Source: a virus. Taken from it: DNA of 38,043 nucleotides. Position 1 is the stretch's first letter. Each line of letters starts with the position of its first letter. The notes below the pieces were generated by a model. It had not been told where the DNA came from. It did not search any database and worked only from the letters and a program-made list of their open reading frames with translations. The DNA lies in the IMG/VR virus record IMGVR_UViG_3300006751_000040, positions 1 through 38,043 of that record. One strand, 5' to 3'. A program made the translations under genes and the position numbers. Of this stretch, positions 12,986 through 37,878 are shown piece by piece.

Positions 12986-13801
12986 ATGGCATTAGGATTT
13001 AGTAGGGGTGGGTATAACCCAGGTGGGAGAATAAGGGAATCTAAACGAAACCTGAAGACTTTTCTTTTAGAAGAAGAACAGGCAAAGAATTTAGAATCAA
13101 TAAACGCTAGTAAAGCAGCTGCAAAAGTAAAGGCGCTTCAAACTGGAAAGGATTTATATAGCAAATATTTACATAATAAATCAGCAGCAGTAATGAAACA
13201 AGATAAAATTAAAGATGCAACCTCGCTTGTCCAAGGAGATAAAGTTAATACTTATGGAAAATATGGAGATAATCCTGTAGCTGAGTTATTAGGTATAGAA
13301 TCTGTTGGCGTTAACCCTAAATTATATCAGGATGTAGGACATGAGTTTGCTACCAAATATAACATAAAGGACTTTAGCGATACTCAGAAATTAATTGCTG
13401 GTCGAAAATTAGCTGCTGGACAACAGGTGAAGGTTCCTGGAAGTGATGTTGTCGCGTCAAGTAATATGATAGATACTAGCATAGTAAATGAAGCAGAATC
13501 AGTATTAGAAGGGGCTGGAGGATTATCAGGTGCTGGAGGTTTCATATCAAAATATGCATTACCTGGAATATCAGTTGGAACGAGTTTATATGGAGCGCTT
13601 AATGCTGAAGATGATGAGCAGGCAATTCAATCTGCAGCAGGAATAGTAGGAGGGGTTAGTGCTATAGCAGGTACCGCTGCGTCAGCAGGAGCATTTGGCG
13701 CTGGTGAAGCAGCAGCAGCAGTTGCGGCCTGGGGAGGCCCAATTGGATGGCTAATAGCTGGAGGCTCGATGTTATATTCATTAGCTGATTATAGAGTATA
13801 A
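12986..13801 (+). CDS. Internal virion (ejection-type) protein with hydrophobic C-terminus
   Basis: A 271-residue protein with a strong AAAGGAG ribosome site. The N-terminal half is basic and helical. Residues ~175-265 are Gly/Ala/Ile-rich (GAGGLSGAGG, then SAAGIVGGVSAIAGTAAS, then WGGPIGWLIAGGSM). That looks like the membrane-active segments of podovirus ejection proteins. It heads a run of seven genes likely to encode internal head proteins. Function is inferred from composition and place. TAATG overlaps the acetyltransferase gene. Confidence 0.65.
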   Translation: MALGFSRGGYNPGGRIRESKRNLKTFLLEEEQAKNLESINASKAAAKVKALQTGKDLYSKYLHNKSAAVMKQDKIKDATSLVQGDKVNTYGKYGDNPVAELLGIESVGVNPKLYQDVGHEFATKYNIKDFSDTQKLIAGRKLAAGQQVKVPGSDVVASSNMIDTSIVNEAESVLEGAGGLSGAGGFISKYALPGISVGTSLYGALNAEDDEQAIQSAAGIVGGVSAIAGTAASAGAFGAGEAAAAVAAWGGPIGWLIAGGSMLYSLADYRV

Positions 13802-14253
13802 TGGTAATAAAAACAGCACATATTAATGATATTGAAAAAATAACAGATTTGGGTGAGGAATTTGTAGCAGAATCTCCATCTTTATCTTTGTTAAGTTATT
13901 CGCGCAAAGAGTATCAGCGCTTTTGTACAGATCTTATTTCTAGTAAAATAAAATACATGGTCATAGCGAAGGATAAAGAGAAGGTTGTTGGGGTTGTTGG
14001 TGGTGGACTTCATAATAGGATTGGAAGTTCTGATAAATATCTTAGTGAATATATTTTCTATGTTAGTCCTTCTGCACGAAAAAGCGGTACAGGCAGACAA
14101 TTAATGGACAAATTTTGTGATTGGGGGAGAAGCCAGAAGGTTAAAGTAGTTGAGATGGGTGTTACATCTGATATTGATCCCAAGCAGGCGGATAAATATA
14201 TGTCAAATTTGGGATTTAAATATATGGGGGCTAATTTCTATAAGGAACTGTAA
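13801..14253 (+). CDS. GNAT-family N-acetyltransferase
   Basis: A 150-residue protein with the GNAT fold layout: an N-terminal strand-helix (IKTAHINDIEKITDLG), a beta-hairpin core (YMVIAKDKEKVVGVVGGGL), then FYVSPSARKSGTGRQLMDKF. That last segment contains the R-x-x-G-x-G/A-x-x-L acetyl-CoA binding loop, and the C-terminus is LGFKYMGANFYKEL. It transfers an acetyl group from acetyl-CoA to an unknown amine, possibly a lysine of a virion or host protein. It is translationally coupled (TAATG) to the Hint-domain gene, an unusual partnership. Confidence 0.85.
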   Translation: MVIKTAHINDIEKITDLGEEFVAESPSLSLLSYSRKEYQRFCTDLISSKIKYMVIAKDKEKVVGVVGGGLHNRIGSSDKYLSEYIFYVSPSARKSGTGRQLMDKFCDWGRSQKVKVVEMGVTSDIDPKQADKYMSNLGFKYMGANFYKEL

Positions 14254-14606
14254 TGAAAACTAAATCAATTAAAAATATTAAGGTCGGGGATTATGTACAG
14301 AGTTATAATCATAAGAAAGACCAATTAGTTTCTGCTAAAGTAACTAAGACATTTAAACATAAGGATGTCCCTGGCGTAAAGTTGGTTATTAATAAGGATT
14401 TGACTGCCACAGGTAATCATCCGTTATATATTAATGGAGAATATAAGCCCGCAGCTAGAGCTAAGGTTGGAGATATTGTAGTTAACCCAGATGGAATAGA
14501 AATTAAAATTCATACTTTAGCTTTAAAGCCTATGAAAATTGATGTTTATAATATTGAGGTTGAAGGTGATCATAACTATTTTGCTGGAGGATTGCTAAAT
14601 CATAAC
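14253..14606 (+). other. Hint domain C-terminal portion (blocks B, F, G), at the protein N-terminus
   Basis: Codes residues 1-118. T53-x-x-H56 is the block B signature, D106-H107-N-Y-F the block F region, and H117-N118 the terminal dyad that in inteins undergoes Asn cyclisation. No homing endonuclease is inserted; with the 17-residue C-terminal piece the total is about 135 residues, the size of a mini-intein. Confidence 0.8.
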
Positions 14607-15779
14607 AAATGTGGAATTTGGGAGGGAGATGATGTTACTGTAGAAAAGGCTCGGAATACTTTGAAAGATAAATCTCGAACATTGTGGGAAGAATCAGCAC
14701 GTGAGACAAGAAACTATTTTCGCGTTAAAGCAGAAACTATAGGTGCTCCTACTAGTACTGATTTCGTTTCATTAGGATCTGGGATTGATGATGATGTAGA
14801 TACTACAGATATTGATGAATCTCTCTTTTCCTTTATAGATGAAGAGGGTTCAGCACAGAATATTTCAATTCCAGGATGGCAGACAACACATGGTGGTTAT
14901 AAAACTGATTGGGGAGAAAAACTAGATGATTTTTTTGGTGCCAATGATGCTTACCAAACAGCATTACAAGACGCTGCTAATGCAACAATTGCAGCAGAAA
15001 CTACATTGGAAACCGCTACGAGTGATGTAGTAACTAGTTTAGAGGAAGGTGGTGGAGAGATTGCAGCAGAGGCAGAGGGAGCTCTTCAGGATGTTGAGTC
15101 AGCAACTGCTGCTATGGGATTTGCAGCATCTGGAGCTGAAGAAGAGATGAAAGGCGATGTTCGTAGAGGGTCTGGAGAAGCATGGGCCACTACAACATCT
15201 AGTGCACAATCTAGCTTACAGTCTGCATTGGATGATTATGCAGGTGTAATGGGTGATGCGGATGCAGCTACCGTAGATGTTTCTGGTCAGGAATTGGGAA
15301 ATCTTGGTTCAGTACAGACTAACTTAAATACTGCTTATGATAACTTTACGAGGGCAAGGAAACAATTAGACACAGATATCTCTATTATTCAGTCTTCATT
15401 AGATAAGGGATTTGCTGATTATGAGGACACCCTTGGGGCTTATAAAAGCACTTTTGAAACAGCTTACACTACAATTCAAAGTACTGTCGGTGCACAAGAT
15501 GCCGCATATGCTATACCTCAAATGTCTGAGATTACAGGGGAGATAGAGTCGAGTATCGGAGCATATATTGGACATACAGGAGATACAGAATTTACGTATG
15601 AGTCTATGAAGGGGATAAATACACCCACCTATACAGATCCAACGGACTGGGGTGAGACGGGATCTTGGTCTAGTGGTCAGGGTGGAGGTACGAATTTCTT
15701 ATATATGGGACGCGGAGAACACCAATGTTTAGAGGGTAATGTAAAAGTTGTGATGGGAGATAAAAATGCCAGCAAATAA
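14253..15779 (+). CDS. Virion-region protein flanked by a permuted split Hint (intein-like) domain
   Basis: A 508-residue protein. Residues 1-118 match a Hint domain without its first strand: IKNIKVGDYVQSYN, block B T53-G-N-H56-P-L-Y, KVGDIVVNPDG, block F VYNIEVEGDHNYF, and block G ending N116-H117-N118 before K119-C120. The conserved N-terminal Cys strand is missing, and a stop codon lies just upstream in frame (14241-14243), so it cannot be restored there. Instead the last 17 residues (C492-K508) read C-L-E-G-N-V-K-V-V-M-G-D-K, a block-A look-alike. The cargo between is acidic, Ala-rich and largely helical, as expected for an internal head protein. The predicted chemistry (cyclisation, concatenation or cleavage) is inference. 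The +1 residue Lys makes it more like a bacterial intein-like (BIL) domain than a classical intein. Confidence 0.8.
   Translation: MKTKSIKNIKVGDYVQSYNHKKDQLVSAKVTKTFKHKDVPGVKLVINKDLTATGNHPLYINGEYKPAARAKVGDIVVNPDGIEIKIHTLALKPMKIDVYNIEVEGDHNYFAGGLLNHNKCGIWEGDDVTVEKARNTLKDKSRTLWEESARETRNYFRVKAETIGAPTSTDFVSLGSGIDDDVDTTDIDESLFSFIDEEGSAQNISIPGWQTTHGGYKTDWGEKLDDFFGANDAYQTALQDAANATIAAETTLETATSDVVTSLEEGGGEIAAEAEGALQDVESATAAMGFAASGAEEEMKGDVRRGSGEAWATTTSSAQSSLQSALDDYAGVMGDADAATVDVSGQELGNLGSVQTNLNTAYDNFTRARKQLDTDISIIQSSLDKGFADYEDTLGAYKSTFETAYTTIQSTVGAQDAAYAIPQMSEITGEIESSIGAYIGHTGDTEFTYESMKGINTPTYTDPTDWGETGSWSSGQGGGTNFLYMGRGEHQCLEGNVKVVMGDKNASK
15726..15776 (+). other. Candidate Hint block A segment at the protein C-terminus
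   Basis: Codes residues 492-508, starting with Cys and following G-R-G-E-H-Q. The C-L-x-x-x-(T/V)-K-(V/I)-x-M-x-D pattern is what normally opens a Hint domain and leads straight into I-K-(N/D)-I-K-V-G-D, which is exactly where this protein begins. The last 14 bases overlap the next gene. Confidence 0.6.
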
Positions 15780-17562: not shown

Positions 17563-20500
17563 ATGCCATTAACTGAATCATTCCTTAATAGAATAAAGGA
17601 AGACGAAGAGAAGAAGACCAGGATAGGTCCATCTCTTGGTGGTACAGAAATGTCTGCTCTTGATGCTAGTCGTCAGATTGTTAGACCTGGTGATGAACCT
17701 GAAGATGATTTTAGCTTGATGGATATGGCTGGGTCTGCCCTATGGGGTGCTGCATCTGGTATGACATTTAGTGCAGCTTCAGCTTTCCATGATAAGCCAT
17801 GGGAAGAAATGGGTACCGATGAACGTATTGGCTGGGCTGCTGGTGAGGCCTTAGCATTAGTATCTCCTATAGGACCTTTTAGTTTAATTGGTAAAGGTGC
17901 GGGTAAAGCAGTATCGGCTTTTGCTAGCTCTGGGGGTAAAAGAATTACAGCTGAGGCTATTAAAAAGGTTACCACAGAAGCAGCTAAAAAAGGACTTGCT
18001 GCTGAGGTAGTTGAAGAAGGTTTAAGGAAACAAGTTTATAGTAAGGTAGGAAAACGTTGGCTCCAGGAACATTCTGTAGGTGGTGAAGCTCTAGAAGAAG
18101 CCAATGTAATGATGTCTCGTATGGCTCATGGTGGTATTAAAAAAGCCTTTACCGATGGTGGTATCGAAATTTCTGATGATGTTGCTAGAGATCTTGGTGG
18201 TAAATTTGCCGATGCATTAAAGGTTAAAGGTAATCACCTTAATACTGTTGATTCTTGGGTGGAAAATGCTCTCCAAACAAAACTCCCCTTTGGTGTTAAT
18301 GAACGTGTAGCTCGATATCTTGGTATGGGAGCCCAGGACATGGTAGTACTTGGTGTTCATGGACTAATAGATGATGCTGTTAAATCTCGTATTGAAGACA
18401 GAGATTACGAACCCCTTACTACAATGGAACATGTATTAATGATGTCTGCTACTTTTCCTCTTGTCCGTGGTATTAAAAATATTGGCGGTTGGGGTAAAGC
18501 AGGTCATGGCTCCTTAAAACAAGGTTGGAAGTCTATGATGAATAAATATGCTTCTGCTGATTATAAGGGTTTAACTAAAAAGCATGGTGAAGAAACTACC
18601 AGAGGTCTCCTCCAAGTATTAACAAATGGTGGTAGATATAATGTTGCTAGTAAAGGTATGGGTAAGGATAGAGTATGGGATGTAGCAGGAGAAAAATATG
18701 CTTCTGCAAAGATTAATTCAAGTATCAATACAATGCCCATGGACCATGTTTATGATTTATTAGGTCAATATAAAAAGGAAGTTGGTAGATTTGGATTAAG
18801 TACTTGGTCTAAAGGATATGCAGCTGATTATCTTGCTTCTGTTCCTCGTATGGTAGCTGGTGCTATGGCTATGAATTGGGAGATGATTAAAACAGGACAG
18901 ATGGATGACTTAGATCCTCGTGAAGCTATGACTCATCTCTTTATTGCAGGTTTAATGACCAAAAGTCGTGGTGCCTGGGGTAGAGATACAATGCGTGAAT
19001 ATGTTATGGATTTCCAAGGACACCAAGAAACAATGGATCTCCTTAATATCAAGCATGAAGGTATTACTGAAATGATTCAAACCTATAATGAAGGCCAGAC
19101 AACGGCAGCATTTGGGGCTTCATATCGTAGCAATCCAGTAGCACAAAAATTAGAACAAATATATGAAAAGAGGAGAAATGACCAGACACATCCTGAATCG
19201 GAATATACTAATGAAGGAACTAACTTTAAAATTGTAGAGGACTTTAGTAATATTGTTAATATGATGGGCATGAGTGCTTCTGCTGACCCTGGTACCTATC
19301 CTCGTATTGAAGTTCGTAGATTAGGTAAGGCCAATCTCGAAGCAATGAAAGCAGAAATTGAGGAAATACAATTTGCTAATGGTGATAAATTAGGGGAGTT
19401 AGGATATTCTGTTGGTGCTAGTCGTATTACTGGGGAAGTAGCTAATGCTAATAAGCAGATCTATTTCAATATGTTCCAGGAGCTTAATGATGCGATAGGT
19501 CTTCCTGTTCGTGTTGCCAATGATGGTAAGTCGTTAGAACTTAGTACTATGAATATTCCTCTTGGCACAAGTTTAGGTGAATTTGGAACTGTACAGTCTG
19601 CTCTCCATCTATTTAGAGATATAGGATTAGCTAGGGAGACTGTTCCTGGTGCAGAGGTGGGTTTTAGGATTAAAGATGATGGTAAGCTAGTACGTACAGA
19701 TATTAAAGATAAAAATGATCCTTTATATGATAAGGATCTTAATCCTATTGTTGATGGTATTGTTGATAAATATACAAGTCTCCTCGTAAAAAGCAATCAT
19801 GGTAATGATTTTAATAGATATGTATCATTAGATGGTGCTGACAATCCATATCTCAAGGCTATTATCCACAATGAAGGTGTTCAAGCTCTGGAAAAAGTAT
19901 ATAAAATGTCTACCAGAGATATGGAAAACATGGACACAACTGAAAAGAACTTTGTTGTGGCCGCTGATCGTGCTCTTCGTATTAAAGATGCGTGGGAGGA
20001 TCCATCTCTTCTTGGTAGAATCTTAGCTGATCCTGGTCAGTATACTATTGGTGAGAAAAAGTTAACCGGTAAGGACAAGGATAGTCCTGATGCAATAGAA
20101 AAAGCTGCTGAATTATCTGAAAATCTCACAGTACAGATACGAGAAATTATCCATCCTATGATCGCTGCAGCTGAAACATCTGCAAGAGATCCTAAGACAA
20201 AACATACTATTCCATTTGAGGTTGCAGAAAGCTTAGTTGAGGAATATAATAAGTTGGGATTTAGGATTCCTGCTGATAATTATCTGTCAGCTTTTGGTAG
20301 AGATTTTGAATCTTCTGTTGAAAATTATACAATGAGTAGGTTATTACGTGATTGGAACTACAGTGATGAAGCATTAAATATAGTTATGGCAGCTAGAGAT
20401 GTAGGCATGTTAACCATAGATGCACGTGGTGGCCTTGAAATCTCATCAGTAAAGGCTATCAGAAAACAAGCTGTGGCAGAAGGTCTTGAGGTTCCAACAC

Positions 20501-23500
20501 AAAATGATCTAGCTAGAAAACATGCAGCAATCTTAGATATTGTTGCAGGCCCTAAGGTGACTGAAGTAGGTGAAATATTCCAAGCTGATCCAGCTACAGG
20601 CCTTCAGCCATTCTATGCTAATGATGTTAATAAGGTATACAATAGATTAAATACAGTATTTGCTAAAAAGGTTTCAGAACAGGCAGAGCGAGCATTAAAG
20701 CTTGTTGATCGTGATCTTGAAGGTAAAAAGATAGAATTAAATCGTACCGATATCATGTCAGGTATTGATAAGTTTAATAAGACTGGAAACATTGAAAACC
20801 TCGCAGGCGTCGAAAATGCCCTCAAAAACCTTAGAAATGATTTTGGTGGTAAGGAAGGCTACGAAGCAGTATTAACGCAGTTAGAGGGCCAAATAGGGCG
20901 TTTTAAGGATGCTCGGCTAGAATCTAATAAAATATTGACTGAAGTATATGGTGATTATACTATGTCTATTGGTGAAGGTATTCAATATATAGCTGATAGA
21001 TCAGAAACTGCTAATAATAAGATTGCCCAGGTAATGGATAAGATTAATCTATTAGGTAAAGATCCTATGACCAGGGGTGAAGCACTCCGTCACAAAGATT
21101 TTTTAATGAAACAATTAATGTCCGAACTTGGGACAACTGATAATTTACGTAAAAATACATTAGATGAAGCTGTTGATGTCTTCTTACAAGGTAGGACTCA
21201 TGAAGATCTTGCAGGTCTTATGGTTGGTGTTCATAAGGTTATAGAACAAAATCGTGCATTTAATGTAGATCAGGTTGAGCAAATGAAGGCTGATGCTGCT
21301 AAGTTTGGTGAATTATATAAGGAAAGTGTATCTCATCTCACCACTATTAAAGATCTCCATATAGCCAAGAAATATGGCTTAACTGATCCAGATAATATCA
21401 ATAAGATTGATCCTAAGTTTATTGAAAACATGGAGACTGAGGGGATACATACAGCATTATATGAAGTGCGAGATCAGATCTATGCCAATAAAGATTATGT
21501 TAATGACAACCAGAAGCGTGAAGCATGGAAGACATTTAGAGCAGAGGAGATGCCAATTCTAATCAAAGGTGCGTTTGCATCTATTGGTGGTTCTCGTAAA
21601 ACTGTTCAGATTTATGGTAATAATGTAGTAGTTAGGGATAATGTTCCTGGTAGGTCTAATAAGTCAGATGATTTCTACAATGTTAACAATTATGATGTGT
21701 TTTTCCTAGAACAGAAAGGTATACTTGCTGATAGGGAACAAACAGTTGAAGCTAGGGATGATCTATTTGACATCTTAAATGGTGAAGGTCCCAAGGGACG
21801 TAAAACCCGTGTTAACCAAGATTGGCTAGAATATTATGCTGCTGAAGGTAGAAATGCTGATAAGTTTGAATTGGAGGATAAAACAAGTCAATATATAGAA
21901 GGTATGCCTCCCAATGAACTTGTTCCTATGGATATTAATGCTGGTCGTACAGTGTTGTTCCATTGGACTAAGGATAATCAAAAACGTTTAAATACTAACT
22001 TTGCACAATGGTATGAAGCAAAACGTAATAGACTGTCAGGTAATCAAAAACTCAATTTTGAAGATAGTTTTGGACATCTATCTACCTTAGAAAGTCCTGG
22101 CTTTAAAGATGCTGAGTTAAAGATGTTTTTAATGCATGCAGATTACACCAATACTTCTGGATTGAATAGATTTTTACAGAGTGATGTCTTCACAGACGCA
22201 ACTGCACGATCTGAATGGTATGATAAATATTTCAAATATAGTAAAAGTTCAGAGGGTGGGAATACATCTAGAATGACCAATGAAGTATTGACCTATATGT
22301 CCACTCATCATCCAGATATGCAGGTTAGACAAGCATTTAAAGATGTTGTTCGGGATGGTGTTAATGCTACTGCAGTCCAGGATGAGTTTTATGATGCATC
22401 TAATCCATTTTATAATTTAAATAATATTAGGACAGATATTACTGCTATCTCTGTTGATCAGGCTCGATCTCAGGCTGAACGAGATAATGCTACAGCATTT
22501 TTAACTGAATTAACTGCAGAGAATAAGCCAAGTACCCAATCTAGCTCTATTGATGGTGGTATGTTTATCAACCAAAAATTAGCACGTGTTATTTGGGCAT
22601 TAGAAGGCAAAGAAATAGGTGATTTCAATGGCTTAAAACCAATAGTATTTCATAACAATCCTGAAGCTGGTAGTACAGCTATTTTAAAAGGATTTATGGT
22701 ATATCATCCAGATATTGCAGGTAGAATGGGTAATTCAGATATTTTTATGGGAGAATCTACTGCTAAAGAATTTGGAAGAGATGGCTTAGTTCCACTTAGA
22801 TTTAGCAATCCAGACTGGCGCCAAGATATGCATGGACTAGGGCCAGATAATACAATTAATATACTACCTAGCGATATTGGCCTTGGTTTTCACGGAGAGG
22901 CTGGTAAAGGTGTTGTATTATCGCATACTTTAAATGATTTCCATGACGTACGTATGACACAAGCTGTTCAGGCATGGCAAGGTTTGGAAAAAATGGTTAC
23001 AGAAATATCAGGATACAATACAGAGTTACTTGGTAGATCCAATAATGAATTATCTGATATTTTATATGATATGAAGGCTAGAGAGGGTTTTGAATTTGAT
23101 CAAGGTATAAATTCTTTAGCTCAAAAGCTCCTTGTATATGGTATGGAAACTAATAATGGTGTTATTAAAACTGCAATAGGTCGTTTATATAGGTCTAAGA
23201 TGATAGATATACTTAGAAAGCCTATTACATCTAAAGGTGCTGATACATATATTATACCAGAGATTACTGCTCCTGAACATAGTCTGCGTAATCCAGTTAT
23301 TAGGCGGGTTGAAATGGATGTTAATGGAACTATTGTAGATACTGGATCTAGGATTTATACTCGGTTTGGCGGAGCTAGGGTTGGTAATAGTTTTTATAAA
23401 AAACCTGTAAGCAGTATAGGGGAATTGGATTTTATATATAATGATAATGGTATGGATATTGTCATACGGAAGAGTGGCAAAGATAAGCCAGACTTGTCAA

Positions 23501-26496
23501 ATTGGTCAGTACATAATACTTATGAACAAATGGTAAGAGGTCGTGGTGCTAGATTTGCAGGAGGAGATCCATATAGTAATTATAACTTCTCTACACAAAC
23601 CCAATCCAGGGTTAGAGATATTATTAGTCAAATAGATGCTTATGTCAAGGATAAAACCCTGTCATGGAGCTATGGAGACGTGTTTAATCTATTAAATACT
23701 GGTATTGCCAGAGTTCGTGACCGTAATGGTAAGCGAATTGTTAAGAAATTACAACAACTTCGTGCAGATGTAAAGAAATATGATATACAGCTGGGTATTA
23801 ATGCTGTTGCTATACCTAAGAAATCATATGATATAGGTTTCCATAGAGTAGAAGGCATTAGTTCTAGGGTATTAGGAGAAACATCATCAGTTAATGCTTA
23901 TGACCTTCGTGTTATGCATCAACGTGATTTTGATGGAGATCATTTATATTCCTGGTATGGTACACCATTTGAAGTATTATCACATAATATTAATAAAATG
24001 GGTATTATATCTGACTATCATCAGATGGATAAAACACCACATGATATAGACCCAATGGGATTTGGAGAATCTATTGCTAAAAACAAGCCTCGTGCTGGTG
24101 CTATGAATAGATCTATTGGCTTTTCTAAGTTAAAACAGTTCCAACAAGGTAAAGCTATTGCTGTTGGTGCTAATATAGGCATGAAGAATGTTATTAATTG
24201 GATGCAGAATGTAGGACTTAGAATAGGTGACAATGCAATTCGTCCATTAAATAATGCTGCTATTGGAGAGGGAAGAGCAGATCAGCTCAATTCAGGTGAA
24301 ACAATAGGTGTTCTAGCTCGAATGGCTAATATTAATCAGTCTACTGTAGACCAATGGGGTGGATCTAATAGTATATTGCTCCAAAATATGCGTAACTTCC
24401 TATTATATGGTGAAATTCCAACAGGAATGGAAAATGCCGTTAATCCTGTAAATCAGCATATGAATTTGCAGTCTATCTTTACTGGCACACTGCGTAATAT
24501 GACTCGTGCAGATGCTCAGTCTGGCCAGGTAAGACAGACAATAGAGCGTGATATAGTTGATATTATTTCAGGTACAATGCGTAAAGCATCAATGATATTC
24601 AATGATACATATGATTCGGGTGGTAGACATACTCCTGAAAACTGGGAGCTTAGTAAGGTACAAGATGATTTAAGATTTATGTTTAAAAGTCCTAATCTTT
24701 ATGTTGCTAAGAAATTGCTCTGGAAACATCGTAAGGATGAAGCTAAACAGATTGGTATTGTTAAAATGTTCTATGATGCTGGGGGGTTTGCTAAGCATTT
24801 TAGATTAGGTGATAGATATGCTTTAAATATGATCCTAAAAGATATAAGGAAAGGTAATGTTCCTACTCCTTCAGCAGAGGTTGTTAAGTTTTCTACTATT
24901 GCACCAGCAAGGGATAAAAACAATCAGGCAATTCGTAAAGAAAATTACTTAATGGGTTTAAATAATTCTGGATATCTTATTAATCAGGTATTAGAAAATA
25001 GAGCTTTCGGCTCAGAATCCAGGTTTGGGACATTAAGTAAAGATGCAGTATCCTCTGCTACTAAATTTACCAGTAACCTTATTGATAGAGTTGCTTTTAT
25101 GCAGGCCTTTGGACATAACGTAACAGAGCCTATTAAGTTGATGCATGAAGATGGAACATTAGATTCAGAAGCTCCATTTTTATTGCAATATAAGGATGGT
25201 TTAGGTAATCATTATCGTCCTGCTCGTCAGATGCAGATGGAAGGTGCTGTGCATAGCCTATTAACCAGAGAAGCTGCTAGATTAGGTCGTAACATACAGA
25301 AATATAGGGCTGGTGGCAAGTTTATGAAGTTTGATTTAGAGAATGCTACTGAACGTTATGAAGCAGTTGAAGCTGCAATGAATACTGTTGAGAATCGTGC
25401 TATGTCTGAGGTTAAACCTGTTGATATTAAATTGACTAAATTAAAAGCTATAAAAGATCAAAGATTGCAACAAAAATCTATTAAGGTTTTCGAAAATAAA
25501 TATGTTTATGCATATAGGGGGGATATATTAGACTCGAAAGACTTTGGTCGAATTAAATATGAAGAATTAAATGATGCTATTGGTTTTGTAAAGGCTGGAG
25601 ATCGTTATACTGCTAAACCAGGTATGACCTATATAGAGGTTAAAAAACCTATTATACATCAAAGTATCAGTGATGACGAAGCTCGTGCTGGTGTTGCATT
25701 ATATAAAGCTGCTAGTTATGACATGAATCCAGCTAAGTTCTTTGATGAAACTACAAGATTTAATTTTTCAGAACATACTGCCCTGATACAAAGCGAAATA
25801 TCTGATAATTACAGAGATGTATTAAAACAATTAAAAGCAGCAGGATCATCTGGTACAGCATATTCATCAGATTTATGGGGACAGGCTACTACTAAAGATC
25901 AATGGTTATTAGATGCTTACTTTAAACGGTTTGCTGGGAAAGAATTAGATAAAGAACAAGAATTATTAATGGCTGTGAAGTACTTAGTTATGCCACGCCC
26001 TATGCAGGGTAGGTTTATATCTACTAAAGGAGAAATACCAGGTGTTCCAGAAGTTCCTTATTTCGCTGTTAATAAACGCCTCCTTTCTGCTACCTTTGAA
26101 TGGTTAAGTAGAAATGGCTTTCTTGAAGTAGATGGTTCTGGTGCTGTGAATGAAAGACTTCCAGGTATGCAGAAATTTATTGAAAGTTGGGGCACATATG
26201 ATAAACAGATGAGAAATGGTAAGGATTGGGAGTTTGAGGATATTAATAAATCACTTGGTTCTCGTAACTTAATGTATATGAATAACTATAATTTTAACTT
26301 TGAAAAGCTGGGTAGTAACGCAAGCTTAGTTGGTAATATGATGGCAGATCATGCATTTTATGATCCCGCTATGGAGACAATGATACAGGATTATAATGTT
26401 CTGCCTAGTGGTAGGGAGATAAGTAAATTTACTGCTGATCCACTTAAATCACAGAAAATTAAGAAGAGATTATTAGATAGGGGATGTAAAAACTAA
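17563..26496 (+). CDS. Giant virion-region protein with RNA polymerase-like double-psi barrel motifs
   Basis: A 2977-residue protein with a strong GGGAG ribosome site. Residues ~45-130 are Gly/Ala/hydrophobic and may interact with membranes, as in ejection proteins. Residue 1725 onward has SDIFMGES, like the E-D-S-I-I-I-S segment of RNA polymerase beta. Residues 1769-1784 (P-S-D, then G-x-H-G, then K1782-G-V) resemble the beta P-G-D-x-x-x-G-x-H-G-x-K-G-V loop. At 2122-2126 is DFDGD, identical to the beta-prime metal-binding core, preceded by an H-R-x-x-x-G-I segment about 28 residues before it, again as in beta-prime. Giant single-chain two-barrel RNA polymerases packaged in virions are known from crAss-like phages. 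The assignment here is inferred from motifs only. An ejection role for the long N-terminal and C-terminal regions is likely. Confidence 0.7.
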   Translation: MPLTESFLNRIKEDEEKKTRIGPSLGGTEMSALDASRQIVRPGDEPEDDFSLMDMAGSALWGAASGMTFSAASAFHDKPWEEMGTDERIGWAAGEALALVSPIGPFSLIGKGAGKAVSAFASSGGKRITAEAIKKVTTEAAKKGLAAEVVEEGLRKQVYSKVGKRWLQEHSVGGEALEEANVMMSRMAHGGIKKAFTDGGIEISDDVARDLGGKFADALKVKGNHLNTVDSWVENALQTKLPFGVNERVARYLGMGAQDMVVLGVHGLIDDAVKSRIEDRDYEPLTTMEHVLMMSATFPLVRGIKNIGGWGKAGHGSLKQGWKSMMNKYASADYKGLTKKHGEETTRGLLQVLTNGGRYNVASKGMGKDRVWDVAGEKYASAKINSSINTMPMDHVYDLLGQYKKEVGRFGLSTWSKGYAADYLASVPRMVAGAMAMNWEMIKTGQMDDLDPREAMTHLFIAGLMTKSRGAWGRDTMREYVMDFQGHQETMDLLNIKHEGITEMIQTYNEGQTTAAFGASYRSNPVAQKLEQIYEKRRNDQTHPESEYTNEGTNFKIVEDFSNIVNMMGMSASADPGTYPRIEVRRLGKANLEAMKAEIEEIQFANGDKLGELGYSVGASRITGEVANANKQIYFNMFQELNDAIGLPVRVANDGKSLELSTMNIPLGTSLGEFGTVQSALHLFRDIGLARETVPGAEVGFRIKDDGKLVRTDIKDKNDPLYDKDLNPIVDGIVDKYTSLLVKSNHGNDFNRYVSLDGADNPYLKAIIHNEGVQALEKVYKMSTRDMENMDTTEKNFVVAADRALRIKDAWEDPSLLGRILADPGQYTIGEKKLTGKDKDSPDAIEKAAELSENLTVQIREIIHPMIAAAETSARDPKTKHTIPFEVAESLVEEYNKLGFRIPADNYLSAFGRDFESSVENYTMSRLLRDWNYSDEALNIVMAARDVGMLTIDARGGLEISSVKAIRKQAVAEGLEVPTQNDLARKHAAILDIVAGPKVTEVGEIFQADPATGLQPFYANDVNKVYNRLNTVFAKKVSEQAERALKLVDRDLEGKKIELNRTDIMSGIDKFNKTGNIENLAGVENALKNLRNDFGGKEGYEAVLTQLEGQIGRFKDARLESNKILTEVYGDYTMSIGEGIQYIADRSETANNKIAQVMDKINLLGKDPMTRGEALRHKDFLMKQLMSELGTTDNLRKNTLDEAVDVFLQGRTHEDLAGLMVGVHKVIEQNRAFNVDQVEQMKADAAKFGELYKESVSHLTTIKDLHIAKKYGLTDPDNINKIDPKFIENMETEGIHTALYEVRDQIYANKDYVNDNQKREAWKTFRAEEMPILIKGAFASIGGSRKTVQIYGNNVVVRDNVPGRSNKSDDFYNVNNYDVFFLEQKGILADREQTVEARDDLFDILNGEGPKGRKTRVNQDWLEYYAAEGRNADKFELEDKTSQYIEGMPPNELVPMDINAGRTVLFHWTKDNQKRLNTNFAQWYEAKRNRLSGNQKLNFEDSFGHLSTLESPGFKDAELKMFLMHADYTNTSGLNRFLQSDVFTDATARSEWYDKYFKYSKSSEGGNTSRMTNEVLTYMSTHHPDMQVRQAFKDVVRDGVNATAVQDEFYDASNPFYNLNNIRTDITAISVDQARSQAERDNATAFLTELTAENKPSTQSSSIDGGMFINQKLARVIWALEGKEIGDFNGLKPIVFHNNPEAGSTAILKGFMVYHPDIAGRMGNSDIFMGESTAKEFGRDGLVPLRFSNPDWRQDMHGLGPDNTINILPSDIGLGFHGEAGKGVVLSHTLNDFHDVRMTQAVQAWQGLEKMVTEISGYNTELLGRSNNELSDILYDMKAREGFEFDQGINSLAQKLLVYGMETNNGVIKTAIGRLYRSKMIDILRKPITSKGADTYIIPEITAPEHSLRNPVIRRVEMDVNGTIVDTGSRIYTRFGGARVGNSFYKKPVSSIGELDFIYNDNGMDIVIRKSGKDKPDLSNWSVHNTYEQMVRGRGARFAGGDPYSNYNFSTQTQSRVRDIISQIDAYVKDKTLSWSYGDVFNLLNTGIARVRDRNGKRIVKKLQQLRADVKKYDIQLGINAVAIPKKSYDIGFHRVEGISSRVLGETSSVNAYDLRVMHQRDFDGDHLYSWYGTPFEVLSHNINKMGIISDYHQMDKTPHDIDPMGFGESIAKNKPRAGAMNRSIGFSKLKQFQQGKAIAVGANIGMKNVINWMQNVGLRIGDNAIRPLNNAAIGEGRADQLNSGETIGVLARMANINQSTVDQWGGSNSILLQNMRNFLLYGEIPTGMENAVNPVNQHMNLQSIFTGTLRNMTRADAQSGQVRQTIERDIVDIISGTMRKASMIFNDTYDSGGRHTPENWELSKVQDDLRFMFKSPNLYVAKKLLWKHRKDEAKQIGIVKMFYDAGGFAKHFRLGDRYALNMILKDIRKGNVPTPSAEVVKFSTIAPARDKNNQAIRKENYLMGLNNSGYLINQVLENRAFGSESRFGTLSKDAVSSATKFTSNLIDRVAFMQAFGHNVTEPIKLMHEDGTLDSEAPFLLQYKDGLGNHYRPARQMQMEGAVHSLLTREAARLGRNIQKYRAGGKFMKFDLENATERYEAVEAAMNTVENRAMSEVKPVDIKLTKLKAIKDQRLQQKSIKVFENKYVYAYRGDILDSKDFGRIKYEELNDAIGFVKAGDRYTAKPGMTYIEVKKPIIHQSISDDEARAGVALYKAASYDMNPAKFFDETTRFNFSEHTALIQSEISDNYRDVLKQLKAAGSSGTAYSSDLWGQATTKDQWLLDAYFKRFAGKELDKEQELLMAVKYLVMPRPMQGRFISTKGEIPGVPEVPYFAVNKRLLSATFEWLSRNGFLEVDGSGAVNERLPGMQKFIESWGTYDKQMRNGKDWEFEDINKSLGSRNLMYMNNYNFNFEKLGSNASLVGNMMADHAFYDPAMETMIQDYNVLPSGREISKFTADPLKSQKIKKRLLDRGCKN
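23926..23940 (+). other. DFDGD motif (predicted RNA polymerase catalytic metal-binding core)
   Basis: Codes residues 2122-2126 in a hydrophobic/charged context V-M-H-Q-R-D-F-D-G-D-H-L-Y. In multi-subunit and YonO/crAss-type RNA polymerases the three Asp residues of this motif hold the catalytic Mg2+. Confidence 0.65.
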
Positions 26497-31475: not shown

Positions 31476-31767
31476 CAACCATACCCCAAAGTAGGCACAG
31501 ATAAACAATAGCATCTGTTATACGTCCGGTCACATCTTCACGCTGTGAAGTATGTCCATTGATATGAGATGCAATGCCATCAATATGTTTCATGAAATAT
31601 GTCATTAGCACTGCTTCCTTAGGTTGTCCAGTATAGGATCCAACTCTACGAAAGTTTGCAAACACATCTTCATCAGCACGAGCATATTCTGCTTGTCCTG
31701 CATCACGAGTTTTATTGATAATTACGAAGATTTCCTTCATTAACTTATCCATTTCAGGCTTGGTCAT
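31462..31767 (-). CDS. DUF1599/Nmad1-like protein
   Basis: A 101-residue helical protein with the family pattern: AGQAEYARADEDVFANFRR, then KEAVLMTYFMKHIDGIASHI, then GRITDAIVYLCLLWGM. This group has been proposed to be associated with nucleotide or base modification in phages and to resemble MazG-type all-helical proteins; activity is not established. The Asp, Glu and His in the helices could bind a metal or nucleotide. ATGA overlap with the helicase gene suggests coupled expression with replication genes. Confidence 0.7.
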   Translation of the reverse strand: MTKPEMDKLMKEIFVIINKTRDAGQAEYARADEDVFANFRRVGSYTGQPKEAVLMTYFMKHIDGIASHINGHTSQREDVTGRITDAIVYLCLLWGMVDENK

Positions 31768-33509
31768 AATCTTATAATCCTTGCATTGTCTACTTTTAGT
31801 TCCGCTCTAATTTGTTCTCTTTCTCGGTTTTTATCACTTTTCAGTAATAATGTATCAATCAAACCTTCTTCATTCCTGAAGGGCTTCAAAGATAACAACT
31901 TATTTGCATTATATGCAATACGAAAGGAACCTCTGGCAGAGGCAATATCCATACCTTCTCTGAAAGCTGACTTTGATATCTCAGATACAGCAAATACAAT
32001 TACATTGTGTTTCACTGCAATCTCCATTAATGCCTGGGATGCTTCCTCTACCTTCATGTTATTGTCCTTCTGTTTGCTTCTAAATAATCCCAGATGGTCT
32101 ACAACCACTATCTCAGGTTTATTAGGTAGCATGGAAATGCGTTTGTCAAGCTCGAATGGATAACATGGTGAATAATCAACAGTTAACCATTTAAACTCTT
32201 TATCAATTCCATTTTGGAAGGATTTGTAATGTGCTGCGAGTTCTACTTCACTCCATCCCTTAGCAATCATAACAAACCTAGTCCATATTTGACGTGGAGA
32301 CATCTCCATTTCAACAAAGTACGTAGGTCGTTTAAAGTGCGTCATCCAATTCTGAAGTAGCATTGTCTTCATGGATGCGGGTGGTGCTTGTAGAATTACT
32401 ACTTCGCCAGGATATACAGGAAAAGTCTGTCCATACATTTCTCCAATATCTATTGGTGCTAGATCTTTACGGAGAAACTCTATTAATGCCTTTTCCATTG
32501 AAGAGGCGTCCATCGTAGACTGGGATTTCTTGGCTTTGTAAAGCCTACAAGTATTTTTGCAGTATTCATCCATAATAGGATCACTACATCCATACCGATA
32601 TCCATGTCCACCATGTCCATCGTAGCAATTTGTTACTATTTTATCCATCTCATCTTTCTTGAATGGACTATGAGCATTGTCGACTTTCTGTCTCCAACCC
32701 TCTAATACATATCTTACTACACCTTCAGGATACAACCATCGAAACCATGCTGCCAATCTAAGGGCTACATTATGTCTTCTACCCATAGGTTGACTTTCTA
32801 ACATGCTGCTAATACAGGGGTAGTTAGAAGGGTCTGGTGTCCGTCCTTCGTTCACTATGGGGTCGGTTTTAGGCGTTTCCTTGGGGGTAGAGAGCGCTAA
32901 CGTATCAAATACAGGGTTACACTCCATTACATTATTTAACAGCTTCTGTGGGTGTTTAGCGTATTTTAGTATTTGATCAATTGGTTCAGTTAATTCTAAC
33001 CATTGGCTGGGAATCTGTACCTTATATAGGCCAGATTTACCATTTCTAGTGTTAACGATACGTATTAATCTTGGTTTATCTGTTACAGCTGGGTCAGCAT
33101 ATTCAAATACACCAGCATTTGTTAATGCTTTTTTAACAGTCATATGCAAATCTGTAGCTGGCTTCCATCTAAAGGCATCTGTTGGAATGCCTAGATGAAA
33201 CCCAGTGCCACTGAAATAAGCATTGAATGGTATATCCATATCATGAAGATACAATGATAACCCATATGCTTTCTCCCTAGCACTGTCCACGTTAGCTCCA
33301 TCTACATCTAGGATAAACTCATCAGGTATATAGATTAAACCATCATAACCTGCTAATGTATTATGGCTAGCAAAAAACTCTTTTACATAATCATCATATT
33401 CATACAATGACATAAATGTATCTGAATCTAATCCTTGCCATTCTGATTCATTATCGGCATCTTGGAAGTAATGTCTTCGATGTAGACTGAATGCAAATTC
33501 TCTTATCAT
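31764..33509 (-). CDS. Primase (AEP)-DnaB-like helicase fusion
   Basis: A 581-residue protein with a good AAGGAGAG ribosome site. Residues ~60-170 form an archaeo-eukaryotic primase core: D68-x-D70, S100-G-T-G-F-H105, and R-L-I-R-I-V-N-T near 147-154. Residues ~230-330 hold a helical PriCT-like segment, then a Cys cluster (C308, C317, C321, perhaps with C295) that could hold Zn or Fe-S. Residues ~350-560 are a RecA/DnaB-type ATPase: the P-loop A375-P-P-A-S-M-K381-T382 lacks the usual glycines, and the Walker B is IVVVD471. It would unwind the fork and lay primers for phage replication. Primase activity is inferred from motifs. Confidence 0.85.
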   Translation of the reverse strand: MIREFAFSLHRRHYFQDADNESEWQGLDSDTFMSLYEYDDYVKEFFASHNTLAGYDGLIYIPDEFILDVDGANVDSAREKAYGLSLYLHDMDIPFNAYFSGTGFHLGIPTDAFRWKPATDLHMTVKKALTNAGVFEYADPAVTDKPRLIRIVNTRNGKSGLYKVQIPSQWLELTEPIDQILKYAKHPQKLLNNVMECNPVFDTLALSTPKETPKTDPIVNEGRTPDPSNYPCISSMLESQPMGRRHNVALRLAAWFRWLYPEGVVRYVLEGWRQKVDNAHSPFKKDEMDKIVTNCYDGHGGHGYRYGCSDPIMDEYCKNTCRLYKAKKSQSTMDASSMEKALIEFLRKDLAPIDIGEMYGQTFPVYPGEVVILQAPPASMKTMLLQNWMTHFKRPTYFVEMEMSPRQIWTRFVMIAKGWSEVELAAHYKSFQNGIDKEFKWLTVDYSPCYPFELDKRISMLPNKPEIVVVDHLGLFRSKQKDNNMKVEEASQALMEIAVKHNVIVFAVSEISKSAFREGMDIASARGSFRIAYNANKLLSLKPFRNEEGLIDTLLLKSDKNREREQIRAELKVDNARIIRL

Positions 33510-36340: not shown

Positions 36341-36994
36341 TCAGTTTATCTGTAACATCATTGTTGGAAAATTAAATACAATCTTCTTTTCATACGGTTG
36401 ATTAGTAATTAACTTTCTAACTGCATTTACTATGAAGCTACCACTCATGTTTGAACAATAACTGGTAGCTTTACGGTTACAAGGTTCAACATCACCTTCG
36501 GTATCTGCATACCATGTTGCCTTGTACTTTTTTAACGTAGGAGCTTTAAACACATACTGTTGGTAGTGTTCTGCTCCCATCCTCCCGTCAATTATGAATA
36601 ACGGGCGTGTACCTCCCGTACACAGCGCCTCTACTGCGTGTAACCTAGCTTCCATTGAATCGAAACCCAATATGGCTACATTACGTTCACCAGCACACAA
36701 TTCTTTAAATGTTTCATTGAATTGAAATATGTTAGTATCTGAATTAATATCGTTTAATATAGTAGCCAATGCTGTTACTTTTGGCTGACCAATATGACGC
36801 ATATCATACTGGGAAACTCCGATATTCTCTACATCTACTTTATCATAATCATATAGACATAGATTAGTTGCACCCATCCTAACAAGCTGAAGAGCTGCGG
36901 AACTACCAATAGCTCCGCAACCCAATACGTGATAGGTGTACTCATGTATAGTATTAACTATTCCATCATATCTTGATGTTAAGTCAGCTGCCAT
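36341..36994 (-). CDS. ThiF/E1-like adenylyltransferase
   Basis: 217 residues with GGAG before ATG 36994. The Rossmann opening HVLGCGAIGSSAALQLVRMG (G25-x-G27-x-x-G30) is followed by LYDYDKVDVENIG (D49, N57) and G69-Q-P-K72, then ILGFDSMEAR. This is the ATP- and substrate-adenylating core of ThiF/MoeB/E1 enzymes. The usual N-x-x-R-Q arginine is replaced (NIGVSQ). C172 and C180 are candidates for a thiolate or metal site. It would activate the C-terminus of a small ubiquitin-like or sulphur-carrier protein. The partner is the adjacent JAB gene, overlapping by 16 bases. No ubiquitin-like protein or E2 is recognised in the window. Confidence 0.88.
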   Translation of the reverse strand: MAADLTSRYDGIVNTIHEYTYHVLGCGAIGSSAALQLVRMGATNLCLYDYDKVDVENIGVSQYDMRHIGQPKVTALATILNDINSDTNIFQFNETFKELCAGERNVAILGFDSMEARLHAVEALCTGGTRPLFIIDGRMGAEHYQQYVFKAPTLKKYKATWYADTEGDVEPCNRKATSYCSNMSGSFIVNAVRKLITNQPYEKKIVFNFPTMMLQIN

Positions 36995-37878
36995 TGAGTC
37001 TCCTTTACTGCTATATCTTCAAGAAATTGATAAGGATATTTATGCTGTGCAGCATGAAATAACATACCTTCTGACTCACAGTGAACTCTAATTGTAGATT
37101 TAACTTTCACTAATTCTCCATTTAAATCACTGATAGCTTCAACATAATCCTTATACTGCAATGTACCATCCATATAATGATCATTTAATTCATCAACAGC
37201 ACTACAAGCCCAAGATCTACCATTATATTTAGTTAATGTGTCACCAACATGTGGATATTCATTATAACCATTATAACCACCATAGATACCAAAATCATCT
37301 CCATATACATTTGTATCTAGAAGAGATGTTTGTTTACCATTTAGTTTACCTGATTTAACTGTACTCCACACACGAGTACTGCATTGTTCTTCTACTTCCT
37401 TAGTAATACTATCTGGTATTTTCTTATCTGTTACACCAAGTATTTCTAAATCAGTATCAATGTACATCTGCTGTGGTTTCCAAGCCATTATCCTGAATTT
37501 ATATTCCTCTTTTATGTTAACTACAAGGAATACACTCCAAGTACCACTAGCATATTCATCCATTGTCCTTGTATCGGTCCCAGACCAGAAGGCTCCCATA
37601 TTACCATGGCTATGCCACCACATGAATTGTACATCATTTCCATGTTTTAACGCCATATCCACATAGTATGCAGCTAATGCTTCTTTATCCAGAACACAAT
37701 TACCTCCTGAAGTTTCTTGCTTCAAGATTGTAGGATGTGATATAAGATATGTATCTTCATTAGGTACAGGATTAACTACAGCCATTCCACCAATCTCATC
37801 CTTTTCGCTGGTGTATCTAGCTCTAGCATAATTGATTATCTTATTCCAATCTTTCTTACCAATTGTAAAAGTTGCCAT
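36979..37878 (-). CDS. JAMM/JAB-domain metalloprotease
   Basis: 299 residues with AAGGAG before ATG 37878. Residues ~1-130 are a JAB/MPN domain: E28 in DEIGGM, then H89-S-H91 with seven residues to S99 and D102. That is an exact H-x-H-x7-S-x-x-D zinc site, as in active JAMM peptidases, which cut isopeptide or C-terminal bonds of ubiquitin-like proteins. Residues ~140-299 form a second, Tyr/Asp-rich region that I do not recognise, perhaps for partner binding. Its stop overlaps the E1-like start. Confidence 0.88.
   Translation of the reverse strand: MATFTIGKKDWNKIINYARARYTSEKDEIGGMAVVNPVPNEDTYLISHPTILKQETSGGNCVLDKEALAAYYVDMALKHGNDVQFMWWHSHGNMGAFWSGTDTRTMDEYASGTWSVFLVVNIKEEYKFRIMAWKPQQMYIDTDLEILGVTDKKIPDSITKEVEEQCSTRVWSTVKSGKLNGKQTSLLDTNVYGDDFGIYGGYNGYNEYPHVGDTLTKYNGRSWACSAVDELNDHYMDGTLQYKDYVEAISDLNGELVKVKSTIRVHCESEGMLFHAAQHKYPYQFLEDIAVKETQWQLT

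Follow-up and report, generated by a model that had tools for sequence, protein, structure and literature searches.

A phage protein flanked by the two halves of a split, permuted BIL-like Hint domain, and its possible closure into a ring

Results

Gene layout at the locus

The window, by which we mean the whole stretch of DNA analysed (38,043 nucleotides, IMG/VR record IMGVR_UViG_3300006751_000040), contains a gene for a 508-residue protein that sits between tail fibre/collar genes and the gene for a 2977-residue protein with a DFDGD motif (Table 1). Because of this position, a role of the 508-residue protein in the virion is likely. An earlier, sequence-only reading had described the protein as a Hint or intein-like domain split and permuted around its own cargo, and the open reading frame and the motifs named there (T53-x-x-H56, block F, H117-N118 and C492-K508) all lie at those residues. 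The protein consists, on one chain, of an IntC-like part, a cargo and an IntN-like tail, in that order, and the order is identical in the two related phages L005 and L015 described below. This is the order of IntC, cargo and IntN found on a single chain in SICLOPPS-like cyclisation layouts. Judged by the sequence and by the joining test described below, two separate pieces jointly hold blocks A, B, F and G, as in a split intein or split Hint domain.

Table 1. Coordinates of the 508-residue gene, its parts and its immediate neighbours in the window
Feature	Position	Strand	Basis or remark
508-residue gene	14253-15779	+	ORF call, 508 aa
IntC-like part, residues 1-118, Hint domain without block A	14253..14606	+	PT-HINT, TIGR01443, AlphaFold2, conservation
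Cargo, residues 119-491, opening with the conserved +1 Lys119	14607..15725	+	AlphaFold2, 19% invariant in three phages
IntN-like tail, residues 492-508, putative block A with Cys492, conserved core 492-504	15726..15776	+	Profile joining with control, conservation, AlphaFold2
Stop codon of the 508-residue gene	15777..15779	+	ORF
Next gene, 333 aa	15766..16767	+	Start overlaps tail end by 14 bases
GNAT acetyltransferase gene, directly upstream	13801..14253	+	Present in window and L005, absent from L015

The GNAT gene is dispensable for the permuted layout. An acetyltransferase beside a protein with putative lysine-amine-dependent chemistry is suggestive at most. The 2977-residue protein on the downstream side (17563-26496) carries an RDFDGDH motif, with DFDGD from residue 2122, that is conserved in the relatives read. 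From the likeness to the catalytic DFDGD motif of RNA polymerases it could be a virion RNA polymerase; Pfam, PHROG and PDB sequence searches gave no match in support of this. Elsewhere in the window, a ThiF-family gene lies next to a JAB-domain gene on the minus strand (36341-37878), an E1-like/deubiquitinase-like pair, and a primase-helicase (31764-33509) joins an N-terminal half like the archaeo-eukaryotic type primase of Thermus phages to a DnaB C-terminal half. The first large gene contains a 203-base direct repeat that is 67% identical (291-829). None of the neighbouring genes tested yielded a host assignment.

The N-terminal part is a Hint domain that starts just after block A

The Pfam family PT-HINT (PF07591) matches residues 4-123 with E=1.4e-10 (42 bits against a cutoff of 27.7), which places the N-terminal part in the Hint superfamily by profile, and TIGR01443 (intein_Cterm) matches residues 97-118 with 21.9 bits (cutoff 15.6). 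Block B (T53xxH56), block F (residues 98-113, VYNIEVEGDHNYFAGG) and block G (H117-N118) are all present within residues 1-118. The domain begins with MKTKSIKNIKVGDYV, which corresponds to the place immediately following block A in complete Hint domains such as those of L030 (CFVEGTKVLMGDKTTKNIEDVDVGD) and L029 (CFLKGSKILMADGSRKNIEEIKAGD). An in-frame block A upstream of M1 is not possible because the whole open frame has only 511 codons, and a block A within the upstream gene was also ruled out, L015 having a different gene at that place.

The C-terminal tail completes the Hint profile

The last 17 residues of the protein, C492-K508, are CLEGNVKVVMGDKNASK and very probably represent the block A missing from the N-terminal Hint domain. 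The sequence-only reading had suggested comparing the tail, joined to residues 1-118, with Hint and intein profiles. We placed the 13 core residues of the C-terminal tail before the N-terminal domain and used the 16 residues preceding C492 as a control. The Vint score rose from 15.5 bits unjoined to 27.7 bits joined (cutoff 27), with the control at 16.4, and that for Hint (PF01079) rose from 12.2 to 22.2 bits, with the control at 12.8. Hom_end_hint, which gave no match with the unjoined domain or with the control, reached 17.2 bits from profile position 1 on joining. These three Pfam models include block A, and each of the joined alignments starts at the first tail residue. For L005, TIGR01445 (intein N-terminal) aligned over positions 1-82/83 when the tail was joined, at 22.5 bits and thus below its cutoff of 24.5; in the unjoined protein the alignment began at position 34.

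A weak test was provided by an ungapped matrix built from 28 cis Hint block A segments, on which the tail scored 7.3 bits against 23-38 for the members. When the 11,398 13-mers of the window proteome are ranked by this matrix, the tail nevertheless comes second, and of 2 million random 13-mers 65 score as high. Its G is at position 4, not at position 5, which is the register of many inteins. The joining test with its control is better evidence than the ungapped matrix.

The layout is conserved in divergent phages

A near-identical contig, IMGVR_UViG_3300010151_000113, encodes the same protein at 100% identity. A search with the protein itself found no relative beyond this contig, and annotated phage GenBank records held no full-length relative of the 508-residue protein. 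Further relatives were recovered via the conserved region of the downstream 2977-residue protein. L005 (contig 3300044298) and L015 (contig 3300022693) carry the full gene at 44% and 42% identity, respectively, and in both the Hint part is followed by the cargo and the block A tail (16 residues in L005, CLEGNVKIAMGDKDGE, and 17 in L015, CLEGNVRIVMGDKNGSN). An assembly error is ruled out by the agreement of the near-identical contig with these two divergent contigs from other samples.

In a three-way alignment of the window, L005 and L015, 10 of the 13 residues of the tail core are invariant (77%), as are 61 of 118 in the Hint part (52%) and 71 of 373 in the cargo (19%). Among the 50 residues that immediately precede the tail, 8 are invariant. 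At the cargo rate, 10/13 would arise with a probability of about 1e-5. C492, T53, H56, H107, H117, N118 and the +1 Lys are invariant in all three phages, and all three have a Gly-rich linker ahead of the tail.

More distant relatives (L008, L010 and L012) have a gene of 296-311 residues at the same position, with no Hint domain at either end and too diverged to align, and in L016, where only part of the gene is present, its end lacks the tail. The permuted arrangement may derive from an ancestral cis Hint domain. A search of 11 records with PF07591 matched only the window, L005 and L015, several of the records being fragments; of the eight unmatched records, L006 belongs to a close relative but is a fragment that stops short of the gene, and the other seven are more distant relatives. 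A complete Hint domain lying in one place, which the sequence-only reading had named as evidence against a permuted layout, was found in none of the relatives: they show either this layout, as do L005 and L015, or no Hint domain. A scan of genome contigs returned three loci, all of them cis Hint domains only.

The tail also overlaps the start of the next gene. The likely ribosome-binding site of that gene, GGGAG, lies within the MGDK codons of the tail, with the ATG just after it, and because of this overlap part of the tail conservation may be at the DNA level. Between the window and L005, 11 identical tail codons show zero synonymous changes, and in this pair the conservation of the tail may owe something to constraint on the DNA or to recombination. 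In L015, 3 of 11 identical tail codons differ synonymously. The invariant CLEGNV lies upstream of the likely ribosome-binding site, and its conservation is left unexplained by the start of the next gene inside the tail codons. The homologue of the next gene is split into two ORFs in L015 (5704-6584), perhaps through a sequencing error.

Predicted structure

A first AlphaFold2 run with 3 rows was poor (pLDDT 43; tail 23-26). A second run used 19 rows, in which the 16 added Hint fragments cover the N-terminal part only and none of them the tail. In this model the Hint part has pLDDT values mostly of 85-95, and the cargo forms long helices followed by a Gly-rich disordered linker (458-489, pLDDT below 50). 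The tail has a mean pLDDT of 88 (491-500) with a strand at 498-501. Docking onto the Hint part would be expected to give just such a confidently placed strand behind a disordered linker, and the pLDDT together with the strand assignment suggests that the tail docks in this way. A Foldseek search with the model returned BIL2 of Tetrahymena BUBL1 (6y75, 6tmm) and the Clostridium thermocellum BIL (2lwy) first, and then many inteins. The predicted model thus has a Hint fold, with matches to BIL and intein structures at E-values down to 2.1e-8.

Taken together, the profile joining with its control, the conservation in three phages and the confidently placed tail in the model bear out the proposal of a split, permuted Hint domain around a cargo, and we consider this anatomy very probably real.

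Discussion

BIL-type chemistry

The residue at +1 is Lys119 in all three phages and that at +2 is Cys or Phe, so the domain is not a class 1 intein, which has Cys, Ser or Thr at +1. An ordinary intein in a conserved enzyme is ruled out, the gene having no recognised host domain and Lys at +1. All catalytic residues save the classical +1 nucleophile are present. The invariant H117-N118-K119 provides the C-terminal His-Asn and non-nucleophilic +1 residue of type A BILs. BIL-type chemistry had been offered as an alternative by the sequence-only reading, and both the Lys kept at +1 and the nearest solved structures now favour it over canonical intein splicing. Type A BIL domains, reportedly the subject of Amitai 2003 and Dassa 2004, are among the nearest fold and sequence matches and share with the domain described here the Hint fold, Cys1, TxxH, a C-terminal His-Asn and a non-classical +1 residue. 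However, the known type A BILs are continuous and lie inside a protein, whereas the present domain has a break behind block A and its two pieces flank a cargo in permuted order.

The best Pfam family, PT-HINT of polymorphic toxins and phage tail proteins, likewise includes phage-contig examples with HN-K ends (L027, L046, L047 and L049), but in complete PT-HINT examples block A directly precedes the rest of the domain. HN-K, with Lys at +1, recurs in the BIL-like Hint domains of L027, L029, L046, L047 and L049, mostly on viral contigs, which possibly reflects a lysine-based chemistry. In phage NCTB (L039, 1980-2441) a gene for a 153-residue Hint-like protein, in which a normal block A is seemingly absent, immediately follows the gene of a tail protein with a Hint domain at its own end.

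A model for ring closure and its alternatives

In type A BILs a thioester forms at the N-side Cys, the Asn cyclises and the freed amino group is proposed to attack the thioester (PMC4031507). In the 508-residue protein, the IntN strand (13-17 residues, starting at C492) would fold onto the 118-residue IntC of the same chain and complete the Hint fold, bringing both ends of the cargo into one active site; the Gly-rich linker before the tail would aid the meeting of the two ends. Cys492 would turn the Q491-C492 peptide bond into a thioester and cyclisation of Asn118 would release Lys119. As there is no Cys, Ser or Thr at +1, the free amine of Lys119 would itself attack the thioester, the route put forward for type A BILs. 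Residue 491 would in this way be joined to residue 119 and the cargo (119-491) closed into a ring, while hydrolysis would give linear cargo as a by-product.

We regard self-processing of the protein as probable. That a naturally split, circularly permuted BIL-like Hint domain is wrapped around this phage protein and closes it into a ring has, in our view, an even chance of being correct and is the likeliest of the readings weighed here; the chance that ring closure gives the main product is even or slightly below.

The main rival to the ring is double self-cleavage without ligation, in which the permuted Hint domain would take identical first steps but IntC and IntN are trimmed off and the linear cargo 119-491 is released as part of the maturation of a virion protein. 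Cleavage products predominate among the characterised type A BILs (PMC4031507), which one review holds to be unable to ligate their flanks (PMC7765530), and the +1 Lys of all three phages with its variable +2 neighbour would suit such an outcome. We nevertheless think it rather unlikely, as trimming alone needs just one cis Hint domain and not pieces at opposite ends, and the permuted layout keeps both ends together. A structural clamp, in which the docked tail holds the ends together and nothing is cut, would agree with the lack of a classical +1 nucleophile, but has no need of C492, T53, H56, H107, H117 and N118, all invariant next to a cargo that is only 19% invariant, and is improbable. 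Little credence can be given to pairing of IntN and IntC between chains, yielding linear multimers or polymers, or to an isopeptide link through the Lys119 side chain in place of the backbone bond. The largely helical cargo may oligomerise, the Lys is conserved at +1, and the Lys119 side chain may react, given that BIL2 of Tetrahymena, the top fold match, uses Lys as its nucleophile and forms isopeptide bonds (PMC8616854); on the other hand, intramolecular pairing is favoured by the location of both pieces in a single chain that has a flexible linker. Finally, it is highly improbable that the tail is something other than an IntN, conserved because the overlapping gene starts its translation there, and that the N-terminal Hint domain is a remnant: the GGGAG site and the silent-site identity of the window and L005 would fit, but CLEGNV lies upstream of that site, L015 does carry synonymous changes, and both the joining test and the AlphaFold2 model, whose added rows lack the tail, tie the tail to the Hint domain.

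Relation to known systems

Short natural IntN pieces, BIL ligation without a classical nucleophile (PMC4031507) and the engineered layout are already known. The sequence-only reading had placed a 17-residue IntN among the shortest; it is indeed short but not the shortest, since the natural 15-residue IntN of the PolB16 OarG atypically split intein has been characterised (PMC10189870). That intein shares the natural split just after block A with an IntN of 15-17 residues, but its pieces are two proteins joined in trans with Ser at +1, whereas here they lie on one chain, in reverse order and with Lys at +1. IntC-cargo-IntN is the standard engineered cyclisation design (PMC8114279), and SICLOPPS and intein-based cyclisation have this order on one chain. 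They are man-made and use a classical +1 nucleophile, whereas the present layout is natural and has a 373-residue phage protein as its cargo. BUBL1 BIL2 is, like the domain proposed here, a natural BIL making new covalent links, but it is continuous, lies between ubiquitin-like domains in a ciliate and is neither split nor permuted. In the literature searched, most subscription journals being outside it, the IntC-cargo-IntN order is described as an engineering device and we found no report of a natural permuted layout of this kind.

We tentatively suggest a natural counterpart of engineered intein cyclisation, in which the split, permuted BIL-like domain of these phages ligates without a classical +1 nucleophile and yields a backbone-circular protein of about 373 residues, probably for the virion, although the odds are somewhat against this full reading. 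If the ring forms, it would represent a gene-encoded, enzyme-free viral route to large circular proteins, and a ligation that dispenses with a classical +1 nucleophile and uses a 13-17-residue tag would be useful for protein engineering. With the permuted layout, Hint domains in phage proteins can be given a concrete role that is open to testing.
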